This document shows positions 984 through 16,175 of a stretch of DNA of 64,000 nt, in pieces. This DNA comes from Komagataeibacter xylinus (GTDB taxonomy: Bacteria > Pseudomonadota > Alphaproteobacteria > Acetobacterales > Acetobacteraceae): assembly GCF_009834365.1 (NCBI RefSeq), contig NZ_CP041348.1:2393001-2457000 (forward strand), given 5' to 3'. The notes under the pieces are model-generated. The model did no database searches. It worked only from the letters and a program-made list of their open reading frames with translations, and was not told the origin of the DNA. The position numbers were made by a program, and so were the translations under genes. Within the stretch, counting starts at the first letter, position 1. Every line of letters starts with the position of its first letter.

Positions 984-1168
984 GTGTTCCACGTGTTCCA
1001 CCACGCTAGGCACCTAGAGTAACTGCGGTTTTTCGGAGGTGCAGAGTGGAACACGTTGGAAAATGCGCGGTGTTCCACGTGTTCCACCTCCGGGCCGGTT
1101 AAGTGCGAAGAATGGCGGTTTCCCACCATTTTCTGCAATCGGAGATGAAAGCACTACCCTGGAACACT
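984..1168. repeat. Iteron cluster 1 (9-bp GTGGAACAC elements)
   Basis: Perfect GTGTTCCAC copies occur in head-to-tail pairs at 984-992/993-1001 and 1070-1078/1079-1087. An inverted copy GTGGAACAC lies at 1046-1054, and TGGAACAC at 1160-1167 falls in the 3' end of the acetyltransferase gene. The 1035-1091 part is also a nested inverted repeat, with GGAGGT at 1035-1040 facing ACCTCC at 1086-1091. The same element recurs at 9320-9564 and 15113-15243. The arrangement resembles replication iterons. Short open frames here that read as Glu-His-Val or Phe-His-Val repeats are products of the repeat, not genes. Confidence 0.8.
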
Positions 1169-2051: not shown

Positions 2052-2083
2052 AAAAAAGAGACCGGTTCGCCGGTCTTTTTTTT
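2052..2083. terminator. Rho-independent terminator, usable from both strands
   Basis: The stem GACCGG-ttcg-CCGGTC is flanked by AAAAAA on the left and TTTTTTTT on the right, so it ends transcripts from either side. The stop codon of the nuclease-like gene (2082-2084) sits at its edge, so it terminates the HTH-nuclease operon. Confidence 0.9.
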
Positions 2084-2501
2084 ATGGGCGAACAGGAAGG
2101 CAGAGGCGGCCGGCGGCGCGCCTGGTGGTAATGGTTCGTTCTGGCACACGGTAGGCGGTCTTCACGCGATAAAGCCCGTCTCGGTCCCGTTCCAGCCCTA
2201 CGGCAATCAGGACATATTCGCCTTCCTGCTGGCTTGATCGAAAGCGTATCACAAGTTCAAAATTGTCCGCATGTTTGGGGGCTTGCCCTATCAATCCGGG
2301 CGATTGGCCAACGCGCCGAAGGGCGGACATGCACATGGCATAGTCTTCTGGATGGTCCTTGGCGATATGCCAATGGGCCTGCCGACTGAGGTAAAGTTCC
2401 CCCGGTTCGAGGTCTGTTTGCAATGTGCGGTTAATAAGCTGAACGTCGAGAGAGCCTAATCGGAGCGCAACGCATTGAGCTTTGCTTGTGGGTGCCTCCA
2501 C
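2082..2501 (-). CDS. Phage-type BECR-fold nuclease candidate (PBECR-like), probable toxin
   Basis: This is a 139-residue protein from a GTG at 2499-2501. Residues about 35-120 fit the pattern of the phage Barnase-EndoU-ColicinE5/D-RelE-like domains: GELYLS, a His-containing helix ending in H-P (HIAKDHPED), a Ser-Pro-containing turn, a central strand pair, and a final strand VKTAYRVPE. In such proteins the His and the terminal Thr/Tyr region line the active site. It starts immediately after the stop of the XRE gene (2502), so the two form one operon with the regulator first. I infer a toxin or RNase held in check by that regulator. It may instead be a phage-accessory nuclease. Confidence 0.5.
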   Translation of the reverse strand: MEAPTSKAQCVALRLGSLDVQLINRTLQTDLEPGELYLSRQAHWHIAKDHPEDYAMCMSALRRVGQSPGLIGQAPKHADNFELVIRFRSSQQEGEYVLIAVGLERDRDGLYRVKTAYRVPERTITTRRAAGRLCLPVRP

Positions 2502-2765
2502 CTATTCGCTCTTCCTCAACCGCACCCCAGCCCCACCACCATTCTCAGCGATGAACTCGACTCCAGCCGCCTCCAGGGCGGCGCGGATGGCAGAGATTGT
2601 TGATTTTCTGGGGGCTGTCACTTCATCCTCGAATCGGACGATAGTGCGTTTTGGCACGCCACTGGCCTCAACCAGTCGGTCCCTTGACCACCCCAATAAT
2701 CCTCGGGCGGCGCGAACCTGTGCGGATGTAATGTCCTCCACAGCGCCATTTGTGCTTGCGTTCAT
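2502..2765 (-). CDS. XRE-family HTH regulator paired with the nuclease-like gene
   Basis: This 87-residue protein begins at an ATG (2763-2765) and consists almost wholly of one HTH unit: AARGLLGWSRDRLVEASGVP, then TIVRFEDE and a second helical part, ending in GGGAGVRLR. This GLLGWS...GVP...TI.RFE form is common in alphaproteobacterial phage-type regulators. A longer in-frame reading to 2855 adds 30 residues of poor composition. It lies directly upstream of the BECR-like gene with no gap, and so is the likely antitoxin or autorepressor. It is divergent from the small-gene operon, so it may also control that operon through the palindrome at 2953-2970. Confidence 0.7.
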   Translation of the reverse strand: MNASTNGAVEDITSAQVRAARGLLGWSRDRLVEASGVPKRTIVRFEDEVTAPRKSTISAIRAALEAAGVEFIAENGGGAGVRLRKSE

Positions 2766-2874
2766 CTGCACATAGTGGCATCCAGAAGGACGTTCCGCAA
2801 GGAGCGAACGACCGGACAGGGAGCTTGGACCCTCCCATGCCCGGCCTAACCACAACCGAAGCGGAGTTTCGGCA

Positions 2875-5577: not shown

Positions 5578-5645
5578 GGGATGAAACGTCGGGCCGTCCT
5601 TCTTTCTGGAAACCTGCATGATAATGGGAATATTTCAGAATCCAT

Positions 5646-5663
5646 GACACGCCCTGACGTGTC
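5646..5663. promoter_or_regulatory. Inverted repeat upstream of the AlpA-like gene
   Basis: GACACG-ccctga-CGTGTC lies 26-43 nt before the AlpA-like start codon. It is a plausible autoregulatory operator of that gene. Confidence 0.3.
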
Positions 5664-5688
5664 GCAATGGATATGGAGATTCCCACAC

Positions 5689-5886
5689 ATGCCGATTGCC
5701 TTGACCGACCGTGTCCTCTTGCGGATCGATGATGTCATGCGGGAGACAGGAGCCAGTCGCTCCACCGTCCATCGCCTGATGGCTGCAGGGACACTGGTTC
5801 GGGTGAAGATCGGGCGGGCCACGCGGATTACGGCAGACAGCTACGCCGCATGGATCGCCTCGCTGACGCAGCCCGACAATGCCTGA
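5689..5886 (+). CDS. AlpA-like winged-helix regulator/excisionase
   Basis: This 65-residue protein of AlpA/MerR-like type is the small activator or excisionase family found on P4-type satellites and integrative elements. The recognition unit is clear: DDVMRETGASRSTVHRLMAA, then GTLVRVKIGRATRI as the wing, then a short helix AAWIAS. The start ATG 5689 removes an upstream extension of poor composition and leaves a GGAG upstream. It precedes the replication genes by about 220 nt, so it may switch on replication or excision. No integrase is visible in the window to pair it with. Confidence 0.7.
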   Translation: MPIALTDRVLLRIDDVMRETGASRSTVHRLMAAGTLVRVKIGRATRITADSYAAWIASLTQPDNA

Positions 5887-6111: not shown

Positions 6112-6384
6112 ATGAGTGGAACCACTGCTTTTGACGCCGCCACGCGCCAGCAGATGGTGCGGGCCATGACGCGCGACTACCTCGATCAGCTGGAACGCTG
6201 CATCGCACAGGACCCGCCCCCCTTGGGTGAGGGACGTAGCATTGCCCAGTGCGCGGCGTTCTCCGCCATGAGCCACCTTCTGGGGCTGGAACTGGAACGT
6301 GCCGGACAGCAGGCCCTTGAGGTGCTGGTCGGTGCCGTAACCATCATGCGCGATGTGGCGCTGGGGCGGGAGTTGCAGCCATGA
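6112..6384 (+). CDS. Small hypothetical protein before the primase genes
   Basis: This 90-residue helical protein starts at ATG 6112 with GGAGG upstream. Its stop overlaps the start of the primase-finger protein by 4 nt, so it belongs to the replication operon. No domain is recognised. A role as an accessory to the primase/helicase is inferred from position only. Confidence 0.65.
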   Translation: MSGTTAFDAATRQQMVRAMTRDYLDQLERCIAQDPPPLGEGRSIAQCAAFSAMSHLLGLELERAGQQALEVLVGAVTIMRDVALGRELQP

Positions 6385-6689
6385 CCCGGCACCGTATCGA
6401 CTTCGAGCGTATCAATCGTGCCGCCCTGGTCGCATTGCCTGCCCTGCTGGGGCGCTGGCTGCCGGACGGCAGGCGCGAAGGCCACGAATGGGTGGCCCGC
6501 AATCCCCGGCGCGGCGACCGCGAACCGGGCTCCTTCAAGGTGAACATGAATACCTGCCGCTGGTCTGACTTTGCCACGGGCGACCGGGGCGGTGATCCCG
6601 TATCGCTGGCCGCCTACCTGTTCAATATCCGCCAGGGCGAGGCCGCAGCCCGTCTGGCGACCATGCTGGGGCTGGGAGGTGACGCATGA
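6381..6689 (+). CDS. Degenerate CHC2-type primase finger protein
   Basis: This 102-residue protein resembles the N-terminal finger module of DNA primases after loss of its zinc ligands: EGHEWVARNPRRGDREPGS, then CRWSDFATGDRGGDPVSLAA, the last matching the GxGGDxISL segment that follows the CHC2 finger. Only one Cys remains, so zinc binding is unlikely. It overlaps the DUF927 gene by 4 nt. The pair probably acts together, this unit aiding template recognition and the next providing TOPRIM and helicase parts. Confidence 0.7.
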   Translation: MTRHRIDFERINRAALVALPALLGRWLPDGRREGHEWVARNPRRGDREPGSFKVNMNTCRWSDFATGDRGGDPVSLAAYLFNIRQGEAAARLATMLGLGGDA

Positions 6690-9283
6690 ACGAAACCGAC
6701 ATGCCCACCGATTACACCGATCCCGCACCTGATCCGCATATCCCCGTGCCTGCCACCTCCGTCGATAATTTCGGCAATGTCACGGACCTTACACCCGGCA
6801 TCGAAACTGCCTTTGCTCCGCTTTCGGAGGTCGAACGGCAGGGAACCAGCCCCGGTGATGATGGCCGCGAGATATGGGAGCCTGTCCGCCCCGCACCGTG
6901 CGCGCCAGACATGCCGCGTGGTGCCTCCGCCATGTGGGTCTACCGCGATGCGGACGGCCAGCCGCTCTGTGCCCGTTTCCGCAAGGATGATGGTGCGGGC
7001 GGCAAGGTGGTGCTGCCCCTGACTTACGGCCGCCGGATCTGGACCGATAACCGTAGCAACCGCCGCGATGCGACGGGCTGGCACTGGAAGCAGGGCGCAA
7101 AGCCGTTGCCGCTCTATGGGCTGGACCAGCTTGCAGCCTTTGGGGATGCTCCCGTGCTGCTGGTGGAAGGCGAAAAGACGGCGGACGCGGCCGGTCGCCT
7201 GTTCTCCGATTTTGTGGTCATGACCTCGCAGGGTGGCAGTAAGGCTGCGGCCAATAATGACTGGTCACCCCTGGCCGGGCGCAGCGTCACCATCTGGCCG
7301 GACAATGACGATGCAGGCCAGTCGTGGGCGGACGATGTGATCCGCCTGCTGCGCGAAGCAGGGGCAGGGATCACGCGCAAGGTCGAACTGCCGACCGGCC
7401 TGCCACCGGGATGGGATCTGGCTGATGACCTGCCGTTTGACATGACGCAGGGCGGGGATGTGCCGGATATGGAGATCCTGCGCCCGCTGCTGGACAAGGC
7501 CCCGCTGGCCGCGCCCAACGTGGAAATGCCTCACGGTTATTACATGAACCGTTTCGGCCTGAACTTCATGCCCGAGGCCACGGGCGACCTGCCACCATCC
7601 CCTGTCTGGATTGCAGCCCCCTTCGATGTGGTGGCTGAAACCAATGACGGCACCGGGCAGGCATGGGGCCTGCTGATCCGCTGGGAAGACCGCGACCACC
7701 GCCCGCACCAGTGGGCCATCCCCAAGAAGCTGGTACATGGCGAAGGCAAGGAGATCGCAGGTGAGCTGGAAGATGCCGGGCTGAACTGCTCCATTTCCGC
7801 CACACGCCACCTCCGTCAGTTTATTGCCAGCGTGAAGACCCGCACCCGCCTGCGCTGCGTGGACCGGGCCGGATGGCATGCCACCAGCAGCGGGCCAGCC
7901 TTTATCCTGCCCGGCGGGGTTACGATGGGCAGCGGTGCGCGTGCCGTGGTGTTCCAGTCCACCCGTGCCGCCATCGGGCAGGAGTTCGCCACAGCTGGCA
8001 CCCTGGCCGAATGGCAGCGTGAGGTGGCGGCCTATGCGGTGGGTAACAGCCGTCTTGCCCTGTTCCTGTCCGCAGCCTTTGCCGGGCCGCTGCTGGACAT
8101 TTCCGGTGAGCAGTCCGGCGGCATCCATCTGGTCGGCAAGTCCCAGTCCGGCAAGTCCACCTCCGCCTATATTGCAGGCAGCGTGTGGGGGCGTGGCGAC
8201 CGTGATGGCCAGATCCGTGCATGGCGCGGCACGGCCAACGGGCTGGAAGGTGTGGCGTCCGAAACCTCCGATACCGTCCTGATCCTTGACGAGATGGGGC
8301 AGGCCGACAGCCGCGAGGTCGGGGACATTATTTACATGCTGGCCAACAACACCGGAAAGATGCGGGCCGGGCGCAGCGGTAACGCCCGCACCCGCAAGAC
8401 ATGGCGGGTGTTCTTCCTCTCGACCGGCGAGGTCACCCTGGCCGCCAAGATGGGCGAGGCAGGCAAGCGCACGATGGCCGGGCAGGAGGTGCGCCTCGTG
8501 AACATCTCCGCCGATGCCGGGGCCGGGATGGGCGCATTCGAGAACCTGCACGATATGGAATCCGGCGGTGCGCTGTCCGACCACCTGCGTGTGGCTTCGC
8601 GCACCTGGTATGGCACGGCGTCACGGGCCTTCCTGTCGCGTCTGGCGCAGGACCGGGGCAATGATGCGGAGGGGCTGCTTGAGGCCATCAAAACCATCCG
8701 TGCCCGCTTTGACGATGCCTTCCTGCCCGACGGAGCAGATGGTCAGGTGCGCAGCGTGTCGGCCCGCTTTTCCCTGATCGCGGCAGGCGGTGAACTGGCA
8801 GCCGGATATGGCGTGCTGCCGTGGCAGGGTGGCGAGGCCTTCCGCGCGGCGGGCGCTTGCTTCCAGTCATGGCTGGCCGAACGTGGCGGGGCAGGGGCCA
8901 GCGAGGACCAGCAGGCCATTGAACAGGTGCGGGCCTTTATCGAGGAGCATGGCGAAAGCCGCTTCACCAACCTCAGCCGTGACACCGAAGGCGAGATGGT
9001 CGCCAACGAGAACATCCGCACCAATTACCGTGCCGGGTTCAAACGGCGTGTTGGCACGCCGGAAGGCGACCAGTGGCAATACCTGCTGCTGCCCGAGATG
9101 TTCCGCAAGGAGGTGTGCAAGGGACTGGATGCCAAGCGGGCGGCCCGTGCGCTGTGTGATGCGGGCTACCTGCTGCCAGATCCATCGGGGCGGCGCATGT
9201 CGCAGTCCGTGCGCATCCCCGATGTGGGCCGGTCGCGCGTCTATGTCGTCAGCAGCGCGATCATGGGGGATGACGATGCGTGA
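6686..9283 (+). CDS. TOPRIM-DUF927 primase/helicase (865 aa)
   Basis: This is the replication enzyme of the island. Residues 156-215 form a TOPRIM-like fold (LLVEGEKT with E161; WPDNDDAG with D206/D208) for primer synthesis. Residues about 283-640 form a DUF927 superfamily helicase domain, with Walker A GKSQSGKST (484-492) and Walker B VLILDEM (531-537). A C-terminal helical/winged part (about 730-850) may bind DNA. DUF927 proteins are typical of phages, plasmids and P4-like satellites. The gene ends 36 nt before iteron cluster 2, the arrangement expected if this protein recognises those repeats; that link is inference. It is co-transcribed with the finger protein (4-nt overlap). Confidence 0.88.
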   Translation: MNETDMPTDYTDPAPDPHIPVPATSVDNFGNVTDLTPGIETAFAPLSEVERQGTSPGDDGREIWEPVRPAPCAPDMPRGASAMWVYRDADGQPLCARFRKDDGAGGKVVLPLTYGRRIWTDNRSNRRDATGWHWKQGAKPLPLYGLDQLAAFGDAPVLLVEGEKTADAAGRLFSDFVVMTSQGGSKAAANNDWSPLAGRSVTIWPDNDDAGQSWADDVIRLLREAGAGITRKVELPTGLPPGWDLADDLPFDMTQGGDVPDMEILRPLLDKAPLAAPNVEMPHGYYMNRFGLNFMPEATGDLPPSPVWIAAPFDVVAETNDGTGQAWGLLIRWEDRDHRPHQWAIPKKLVHGEGKEIAGELEDAGLNCSISATRHLRQFIASVKTRTRLRCVDRAGWHATSSGPAFILPGGVTMGSGARAVVFQSTRAAIGQEFATAGTLAEWQREVAAYAVGNSRLALFLSAAFAGPLLDISGEQSGGIHLVGKSQSGKSTSAYIAGSVWGRGDRDGQIRAWRGTANGLEGVASETSDTVLILDEMGQADSREVGDIIYMLANNTGKMRAGRSGNARTRKTWRVFFLSTGEVTLAAKMGEAGKRTMAGQEVRLVNISADAGAGMGAFENLHDMESGGALSDHLRVASRTWYGTASRAFLSRLAQDRGNDAEGLLEAIKTIRARFDDAFLPDGADGQVRSVSARFSLIAAGGELAAGYGVLPWQGGEAFRAAGACFQSWLAERGGAGASEDQQAIEQVRAFIEEHGESRFTNLSRDTEGEMVANENIRTNYRAGFKRRVGTPEGDQWQYLLLPEMFRKEVCKGLDAKRAARALCDAGYLLPDPSGRRMSQSVRIPDVGRSRVYVVSSAIMGDDDA

Positions 9284-9319
9284 CATTCCCCCGTCCGGCT
9301 CCGGGTCAGTGTTTTTGCG

Positions 9320-9564
9320 GTGTTCCATGTGTTCCACGTGTTCCATCTCTCTGGAACCCGCACAAAACTGCCAGTTATCACATGTTCAGGGTGGAACACC
9401 GCGCAATTTCGCCGGTGTTCCACGTGTTCCAGATGCGGCAAAAACCGGGGTGGTGGAACACGTGGAACACGTTGGCATCTGCTTACGTGTTCCAGCACGA
9501 AGCGAAAAATATGGCTGTTTACCGCCATTAAATCAGCATGGAACACCGGGAACACGTGGAACAC
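9320..9564. repeat. Iteron cluster 2, candidate replication origin
   Basis: The same 9-bp element occurs here about twelve times. Three tandem forward copies at 9320-9346 are followed by one reverse (9391-9399), two forward (9415-9432), two reverse (9453-9470), one forward (9487-9495) and three tandem reverse (9538-9564). The order is mirror-symmetric, and the outer triplets are arms of a 31-bp inverted repeat (9316-9346 against 9538-9568) with three mismatches. It lies directly behind the primase/helicase gene. By analogy with P4, where the alpha protein binds iterons at ori, I call it a candidate origin. Confidence 0.8.
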
Positions 9565-9598
9565 CGCATTTTTCATGTGTCGGGCCGGAATGCGACAT

Positions 9599-10291
9599 AT
9601 GGTGAGCCGTAACCTATCGGACTGGGTATCCGATCTGCTGCCCCAACTGGCACCGGAGCAGGTGCCAGAAATGGCAATGCCACCCGCTAATGATCCGCAG
9701 CCGGTCGAGGTGGTTCCTGCCATGCCGTCACCTCCGGCGGAGGGGATCGACCTGTCCAGTGTCACCCATGCCGAGCGCAGGGCGGCTCTGACCGGCTCCG
9801 CCATGGCGCTGCTGGGGGAGGCCAGGCATTACGGCGTGTCGATCGTCGTGCGGTGCGGGCATCCGCGCCTGTCCGGCAAGCTGCCACCCGAAGCCACCGA
9901 AACCCGTTTCCTGCATCGCCTGGGTGAAAGCCGCCGGGCGGTGGTGATTGCCGCCGATAGCCTGGCACGAGGATGGGCCGTGGAATGGGATGAAGAATAC
10001 ACTGAATCTCGCATCACCCCGCCACGACGGGCAGTGACGGCTGATGTTGAACCCTACGTCGTGGATGCCCGAGCCAATCGCAGGCCCGCGTCATGGGTCG
10101 ATACGGAGGGTAAGCCTGTGCCGGAGGGATCGGTCTGCCAGTGCTGTCGCGGCACGCTGTGGTGGCGCGAGATGATGCGCCCGCAGGGATGGCGCTGCCG
10201 GACCTGCCACCCACCGACCGGGGCTGTGCCGGTCACCGAACAGGATACCCGTGAAGGGGCGGACGGCGCACCGGCAAGGATTGCATCATGA
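9599..10291 (+). CDS. Zinc-ribbon protein behind the origin candidate
   Basis: This 230-residue protein starts at ATG 9599; in-frame ATGs at 9575 and 9590 are alternatives, and longer frames run into the iterons and are not credible. The front is Pro/Ala rich, the middle is globular, and residues about 185-210 form a CxxC...CxxC zinc ribbon (CQCCRGTLWWREM, then CRTCH). Such ribbons bind DNA or proteins. It overlaps the next gene by 4 nt. The function is not known; the position suggests a replication or regulation partner of the primase. Confidence 0.65.
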   Translation: MVSRNLSDWVSDLLPQLAPEQVPEMAMPPANDPQPVEVVPAMPSPPAEGIDLSSVTHAERRAALTGSAMALLGEARHYGVSIVVRCGHPRLSGKLPPEATETRFLHRLGESRRAVVIAADSLARGWAVEWDEEYTESRITPPRRAVTADVEPYVVDARANRRPASWVDTEGKPVPEGSVCQCCRGTLWWREMMRPQGWRCRTCHPPTGAVPVTEQDTREGADGAPARIAS

Positions 10292-15259: not shown

Positions 15260-15808
15260 ATGCGATACGGATATGCCCGCGTCTCGACCATCGACCAGAA
15301 CGCTGCCACGCAGGAGGAGGCACTCGCCAACGCCGGGTGCGATATGATCCGTGTCGAGAAGAAATCCGGCACGAGCAGGGAAGGGCGGTCCGAACTGGAT
15401 ACACTGCTGGCCTTCCTCCGGACGGGTGATGTTCTGGTGGTGACGCGCATAGACCGGCTGGCCCGTTCCATAGCTGACCTGCAAACCATCATCGCGGAGG
15501 TGAAAGCCAAGGGGGCGCAACTGCAATGCACCGAGCAGCCCGTCAATACCGGGACGGCGGCCGGCAAGGCCTTCCTCGATATGCTGGGTGTGTTCGCGGA
15601 GTTCGAGACCAACCTCCGCAAGGAACGCCAGATGGAAGGGATCGCGGCGGCCAAGGAGCGTGGTGTCTATAAGGGGCGCAGGCCATCCATCGACCGCGAC
15701 CAGATCCATGCCATGAATGCGGAGGGGATCAGCCCGACCGAGATTGCCCGGCGGCTGGGAATTGGTCGCACGTCTGTTTATCGGTGCCTGGGGAAAGTGG
15801 CTGGCTGA
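15260..15808 (+). CDS. Serine resolvase/invertase (Tn3/Hin type)
   Basis: This 182-residue small serine recombinase has the catalytic serine in YARVST (Ser9), the family motifs RIDRLARS and FETNLRKERQMEG, the long E helix, and a C-terminal HTH (GISPTEIARRLGIGRTSVYR). The length matches resolvases and invertases. The ATG at 15260 follows the inverted repeats of 15113-15243, its probable sites. It may resolve multimers of the replicated element or act as an island-specific recombinase. The tRNA-Asn lies about 290 nt downstream. That gap (15809-16099) shows no convincing gene. Confidence 0.92.
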   Translation: MRYGYARVSTIDQNAATQEEALANAGCDMIRVEKKSGTSREGRSELDTLLAFLRTGDVLVVTRIDRLARSIADLQTIIAEVKAKGAQLQCTEQPVNTGTAAGKAFLDMLGVFAEFETNLRKERQMEGIAAAKERGVYKGRRPSIDRDQIHAMNAEGISPTEIARRLGIGRTSVYRCLGKVAG

Positions 15809-16099
15809 TTAGGTCTCATGCACCAGGGCGCAGTCATCCACAGCAAGGCTTCCTTACAATTTTCAACCAGAGCAAAGAGGCTGTCGCCTGTAGGCTGGTG
15901 ACAGCAGGCAGGGCCGCTTGGGATGTGAAAATGATGGGGGTGATTATGAGGGTTTGGAACAGGGCCAAATCGCGTTCAAACCGGTCTGGACGTGTCAGAA
16001 CGTCCCCGGAAAGCGCATCGCTCATCATGGGTTTAATCGTGGGTCCAGATTTCACGAAATCCGTAACCTACTGATTTAACACTAATTTTTAAGGAAAGG

Positions 16100-16175
16100 T
16101 GGCTCCCGAAGTAGGACTCGAACCTACGACCCAGCGATTAACAGTCGCTTGCTCTACCAACTGAGCTATTCGGGA
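16100..16175 (-). tRNA. tRNA-Asn (GTT)
   Basis: A 76-nt cloverleaf with encoded CCA on the minus strand. The anticodon loop CTGTTAATC gives anticodon GTT (asparagine), the T-loop is GTTCGAGTCC, and the acceptor stem is TCCCGAA/TTCGGGA. The 3' end faces the island, the usual orientation for an integration site. Confidence 0.97.

Follow-up and report, generated by a model that had tools for sequence, protein, structure and literature searches.

In Komagataeibacter xylinus, a DUF927 helicase gene of an integrated element is followed by a mirror-like array of 9-bp iterons, and this locus raises the question of what the array is for and what its order means. The array is located in a stretch of 64,000 nucleotides (contig NZ_CP041348.1, positions 2,393,001 to 2,457,000), which is called the window below; coordinates refer to it unless stated otherwise, and loci used for comparison are numbered with the prefix L. 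The array is likely to be the replication origin of the element, with the DUF927 protein as its initiator and two opposed hexamers, one for each half. Origin function of this putative ori is well supported by comparison with other elements.

Twelve 9-bp sites of the GTGGAACAC type were found between 9320 and 9564 (six exact, five with one mismatch, one with two), each signed according to the strand on which GTGGAACAC reads. The left half-module (9320..9432, minus strand) consists of six sites with the strand string ---+-- (9320-, 9329-, 9338-, 9391+, 9415- and 9424-) at spacings of 9, 9, 53, 24 and 9 bp. The right half-module (9453..9564, plus strand) is its mirror image, with the string ++-+++ (9453+, 9462+, 9487-, 9538+, 9547+ and 9556+) and spacings of 9, 25, 51, 9 and 9 bp. 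With a step of 29 bp between the halves, the entire string is ---+--++-+++, and each half follows the plan of three tandem sites, about 53 bp, one flipped site, about 24 bp (two helical turns) and two tandem sites (3-1-2). The six mirror pairs around the dyad at 9442 are offset by 0, 0, 0, 2, 1 and 1 bp. The dyad is located in an unstranded central spacer (9433..9452) which is not AT-rich: the AT content is 36% in the centre gap, 34% in the gene, and 50% and 57% in the long gaps within the halves. Including the outer inverted repeat of 31 bp (9316-9346/9538-9568, 90% complementary), the unstranded array covers 9316..9568. The helicase stop codon ends at 9283, and 36 nt separate the gene from the first site. 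A sequence-only reading had described about twelve copies in a 3-1-2-2-1-3 mirror layout, an imperfect 31-bp inverted repeat formed by the outer triplets and a distance of 36 nt from the primase/helicase gene; all three were confirmed. The array is not due to chance, since 11 sites with at most one mismatch were counted in 9200-9700, compared with a mean of 0.25 and a maximum of 2 in 500 dinucleotide shuffles. The unit GTG-GAA-CAC is nearly palindromic in itself, so only the central GAA/TTC defines its direction.

A second array, absent from the sequence-only reading, was found 8 kb from the main array at 984..1087 (minus strand). It is a half-module of five sites with the string --+-- and spacings of 9, 53, 24 and 9 bp, equal to those of the left half-module of the main array minus the first, outer site. 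In two Komagataeibacter contigs, L002 and L004, the counterpart of this array has all six sites (---+--; 9, 9, 53, 24, 9). When the own genome was searched for the 18-mer GTGTTCCAYGTGTTCCAY with up to two mismatches, all eight matches fell inside the main array or inside 984-1087. The second array is proposed to be a site like the cis replication region (crr) of phage P4. Integrase arm sites were considered and judged unlikely, because the integrase gene ends about 1.5 kb short of the array.

The association of the repeat with DUF927 genes was examined by an exact search of genome contigs for a run of three copies, which gave 23 stretches in 20 genomes (L010 and L004, L018 and L016, and L020 and L007 share a genome each). 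A DUF927 gene was present in 10 of the 20 genomes; in nine of these it was on the contig of the array within 14 kb (within 5 kb in eight); the tenth carries it on a different contig. In wider draws of genomes, which overlap and include known carriers, DUF927 was found in 48/398, 13/240 and 27/369. Random placement of the arrays with regard to DUF927 genes, named by the sequence-only reading as the outcome that would count against it, was therefore rejected. The other ten genomes are without DUF927. Four of them belong to the Erythrobacteraceae (L008, L011, L014 and L021), with 8-22 matches to the 17-mer. The repeat lies inside possible open reading frames (ORFs) with repeated tripeptides in L011, L014 and L021, and likewise in L013 and L022, which belong to the other six genomes; no such ORF was found under the repeat of L008. 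Coding repeats may explain part of the matches in DUF927-free genomes. L015 (Pseudomonas neuropathica) has the same layout as L012, yet no DUF927 match was obtained in its genome. Two side observations concern the same word. Arrays of about 13 sites were found in viral contigs (L059 5036-5343, also L032, L061 and L068), and no DUF927 relative was detected by tblastn in the fetched stretches of these four. In Azomonas agilis (L001 3256-3381), fourteen 9-bp copies follow each other head to tail in a single run, which looks like an expanded iteron triplet; this locus also contains a phage capsid gene.

The repeat word was also found behind helicases of other families when ten neighbour proteins were scanned. 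A VapE-like protein is encoded 14 bp from the array in L025, and proteins of the D5/DUF5906 kind at 16 bp (L034), 31 bp (L030), 0 bp (L056, with a weak VapE match besides) and 42 bp (L036). Arrays adjoin integrases in L009, L018 and L023. These positions bear on the view that the arrays act not in initiation but in partition, copy control or transcription control, through another DNA-binding protein of the element. The element does encode an excisionase-like regulator (HTH_17; 5581..5886, plus strand) that could take such a role, and a further protein that matches StbA weakly, far below the cut-off; plasmid iterons in general can also serve copy control. The position of the arrays, however, tracks the helicase stop codon across many different elements, and arrays also stand behind VapE-like and D5-type helicases, so that a control function of this kind is considered improbable.

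For a more general comparison, 195 DUF927-like ORFs with a stop codon in their locus were collected (ORFs without one were dropped) and reduced to 133 by removal of near-copies at 80% identity. The set also took the best 80 of 115 viral places and 16 records picked from 120 phage or plasmid records with matches. An array was scored when a 7-mer was repeated within 500 bp at a count reached by none of 100 shuffles. Significant repeats were obtained downstream of 67 of the 133 genes, compared with 4/116 upstream and 2/133 within the gene; for five or more copies the figures were 68/133, 3/116 and 3/133. Because of this difference, the presence of iterons directly behind the gene is a general feature of DUF927-like genes, of which the window is one case. 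The 68 arrays analysed further were defined by five or more copies at p<0.035, a cut slightly unlike that behind the 67. The iteron word varies among elements; the 68 aligned consensus words share about YTGTNNCM, with conservation of 93% for the third G, 92% for the fourth T and 78% for the seventh C. Iteron orientation relative to the layout is inconsistent over the 68 arrays, in part because many words are near-palindromic. A linear plasmid record of 9.8 kb from Photobacterium toruni (pCECT9189-4, L114) has an array of 13 sites and encodes a DUF927 helicase, a protelomerase and a ClpP-related head maturation protease.

The layout itself also recurs. A strict half-module was detected in 17 of the 68 arrays, compared with a mean of 0.12 and a maximum of 1 in shuffles, and in 5 of 13 held-out rows. 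The gaps in the half-modules keep helical phase, and the 3-1-2 geometry is common to elements with iterons of different sequence; the mirror layout is not peculiar to the element in the window. In L332, half-modules of one word (CTGTAACG) flank the helicase gene at 560-649 and 2475-2564; one follows the primase ORF and the other the helicase, and the two are oriented as mirror images. Among 33 arrays of at least 10 sites, the AT content of the richest gap exceeded that of the gene in 32, a result favoured by the choice of the richest gap. Among the titles and abstracts listed by literature searches, no description of mirrored six-site half-modules was found. A half-module geometry that is conserved independently of the word is likewise not described in those parts of the literature on Staphylococcus aureus pathogenicity islands (SaPIs) and phage-inducible chromosomal islands (PICIs) that were available.

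The gene upstream of the main array (6686..9283, plus strand) encodes a protein of 865 amino acids, a replicative helicase with a primase-like N-terminal part and the proposed initiator. Pfam assigned DUF927 (PF06048) to residues 297-571 (E=4.4e-76) and DUF6371 to residues 142-206 (E=1.1e-6), and nothing else at E<=0.001. The PHROG match was to DNA primase (E=9.1e-89). By sequence, the protein matched the PDB entries 5dgk and 8tch; its relatives among solved structures are Cch of the staphylococcal cassette chromosome mec (SCCmec) and Rep of SaPIbov1. The helicase of the K. xylinus contigs L007 and L010 is 98% identical to that of the window, and a search of viral sequences that used only the window protein as query gave no relative. 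A possible split-off primase part is encoded by a 102-aa ORF (6381..6689, plus strand) that overlaps the helicase start by 4 bp. This ORF matched positions 18-105 of NCBIfam PRK07078 weakly (E=3e-5, far below the model cut-off), and the 865-aa protein matched positions 128-284, so a separate ORF seems to encode the N-terminal part of the primase.

The C-terminal domain of the helicase resembles SaPIbov1 Rep, SCCmec Cch and the DNA-binding protein TcpK. The helix-turn-helix family of Cch (Pfam HTH_56, E<=0.1) matched 10 of 48 DUF927 relatives, and the window protein was not among them. By Z score, TcpK is as near in fold as SaPI Rep, and TcpK is described as binding tandem repeats of nine nucleotides in the accessible part of its report (PMC6137059). 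The arrays could on this ground be accessory sites of a relaxosome in an origin of transfer (oriT), like the TcpK boxes. Among the scanned proteins of the element, which represent part of its ORFs, no relaxase was recognised, and the arrays track helicase genes; a transfer function is thus very improbable. Eukaryotic RFX proteins recognise X-box half-sites with the consensus GTNRCC, and an RFX-like code with the iterons as half-sites was considered as well. It was dropped, because the Pfam RFX domain occurred among 30 array-neighbour proteins only in the D5-type helicase of L034 and in none of 48 DUF927 C-termini, and because TcpK was the closer listed fold; what remains is a resemblance of DNA words.

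The array may accordingly be pictured as follows, if the DUF927 protein encoded directly upstream acts as initiator and as a helicase that loads itself. The 9-bp iteron would be read by its C-terminal winged-helix domain, probably through the beta-wing. On each six-site half-module, one hexamer would dock with its six C-terminal domains along a phased face of the DNA, a stoichiometry which we infer from the site number. With the half-modules mirrored, two hexamers would face opposite ways, and two forks could start. The lone half-module at 984-1087 would offer a third docking site that acts in cis over a distance, in the manner of P4 with its split ori and crr. Since the array has no AT-rich centre, one guess is that the DNA may start to melt within the halves, in their long gaps. 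Two opposed hexamers are the simplest model, because there are six sites per half-module, the sites are helically phased and the halves are mirrored.

Several results weigh against this model of two docked hexamers. No array was scored at 66 of the 133 DUF927-like ORFs (some of these are separate primase ORFs), and strict half-modules were lacking in 51 of the 68 arrays. Of the 43 larger arrays, 27 missed p<=0.01 for symmetry; when only strands were shuffled, 0/43 reached 0.01 and 7/43 reached 0.05. Many arrays have 7-11 or 13-16 sites, numbers which vary with the calling threshold. The centre of the window array lacks the AT-richness of its long gaps. Foldseek alone gave no match at E<=0.001 (best 8tch, 1.5e-3). 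Covariation between residues and iterons was weak and scattered over the protein, with only a small excess at residues 836-844 (6 of the top 30 rows; p 2e-5, uncorrected for kinship). L033, with the same iteron, has its half-modules in direct order and not mirrored, and L093 and L180 have a single half only.

The deviations from 6 or 12 sites and from the mirror, together with the tandem and single halves, fit an origin whose layout has no stoichiometric meaning. The iterons would then concentrate the initiator, one hexamer would be loaded, and the mirror would be an inverted duplication of an ancestral cluster. On the other side, elements with differing iterons keep the 3-1-2 geometry, so one recent duplication cannot explain the layout. 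Sites are also better conserved than spacers (between the arrays of the window and of L076, whose protein is 72% identical over residues 385-865, 89/108 site bases and 70/145 spacer bases are identical), and the gaps are in helical phase. An origin of this kind is rather unlikely. The model of two opposed hexamers can be extended to DUF927-type initiators at large, and this extension is given somewhat less than an even chance. Their origins would be conserved in geometry and not in sequence, with a helically phased half-module of six sites that docks exactly one hexamer and is used singly, mirrored, swapped, in tandem or, as ori and crr of P4 suggest by comparison, at a distance, and the iteron word would drift around YTGTNNCM together with the wing residues of the C-terminal winged helix. 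Iteron word and hexamer template would then evolve separately.

SaPIs, P4, simian virus 40 (SV40) and MCM systems share the open question of the way in which hexameric helicases that load themselves open duplex DNA, and of whether an opposed pair is required at the start. Origins whose geometry suggests six sites for each ring, with the two rings opposed, are a natural, countable test system for it, here in a harmless genus. The half-module also provides a signature for mobile-element origins beside DUF927 helicases that is independent of the repeat word.

Both arrays are inside an integrated element of about 18,044 bp beside a tRNA-Asn gene (16100..16175, minus strand), which marks the right end. 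The ends carry exact copies of a 24-bp direct repeat, the right one at 16070..16093 (unstranded) at the element end and the left one outside the window at -1950..-1927 (L084 17551-17574). A longer imperfect repeat is also common to both ends, so the cut point is approximate. A tyrosine integrase (Arm-DNA-bind_3, Phage_int_M, Phage_integrase) is encoded at the left end of the element, just left of the window (-1706 to -513; L084 17795-18988), and a serine resolvase at 15260..15808 (plus strand; Pfam Resolvase, E=3e-39). Matches across the junction of the joined flanks were obtained in 12 of 18 congeners. An empty integration site in these is only suggested, because the own genome, with its long imperfect end repeats, also matches the junction at the right end. 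In the congener G789 (C14 14109-32289), two ends of the element type stand about 18 kb apart at a tRNA-Asn site that matches, which suggests another insertion. At 2082-2855 (minus strand) a PBECR3-like nuclease gene adjoins an HTH_3 gene, both matches being weak and below the Pfam cut-offs; the two genes are a possible toxin-antitoxin-like pair.

Among known systems, P4 is the one to which the sequence-only reading had likened the initiator and its iterons. The ori of P4 has six type-1 iterons with the strand string ---+-- and gaps of 10, 11, 22, 43 and 10, and its crr has two repeats of five sites that start 45 nt downstream of alpha. Like the window, P4 has a six-iteron module and a separate second iteron region in cis, and its type-1 iteron with flanks is mostly CTGTTCACC, close to GTGTTCCAC. 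The six-site module of P4 is away from alpha and has its long and short gap in the opposite order, and the array beside alpha, with its two five-site repeats, is unlike the mirrored six-site halves. By position the main array corresponds to crr, and by its six-site modules to ori. P4 alpha has D5-type helicase domains; the window protein, in which Pfam gave DUF927 and DUF6371, does not fit the alpha family by this comparison. The proposal of a P4-like system is supported by the tracking of DUF927 genes by the arrays and by the presence of a second array, with the correction that the sequence relatives of the protein among solved structures are Cch and Rep.

SaPIbov1 Rep and SCCmec Cch share with the window protein the DUF927 helicase and a related C-terminal domain, and differ in that the latter has a primase-like part fused in front. 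Short iterons directly downstream of rep are described for SaPIs, matching the array 36 nt downstream of the window gene, and binding of two Rep hexamers has been proposed in the part of that literature available; mirrored 3-1-2 half-modules do not appear in the SaPI descriptions found. For Gram-negative PICIs, the accessible text of PMC6092414 places iterons immediately 3' of rep, the position of the putative ori in the window, and reports autonomous replication for EcCICFT073 as well as maintenance of a plasmid in E. coli by a PICI rep-ori segment. In the PICI oris described there, two iteron sets flank an AT-rich region; the window differs, with 36% AT in the centre compared with 34% in the gene and its AT-richest gap (57%) within a half-module. 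A DUF927 initiator with an iteron origin is already known from SaPIs, and an origin behind rep also from PICIs.
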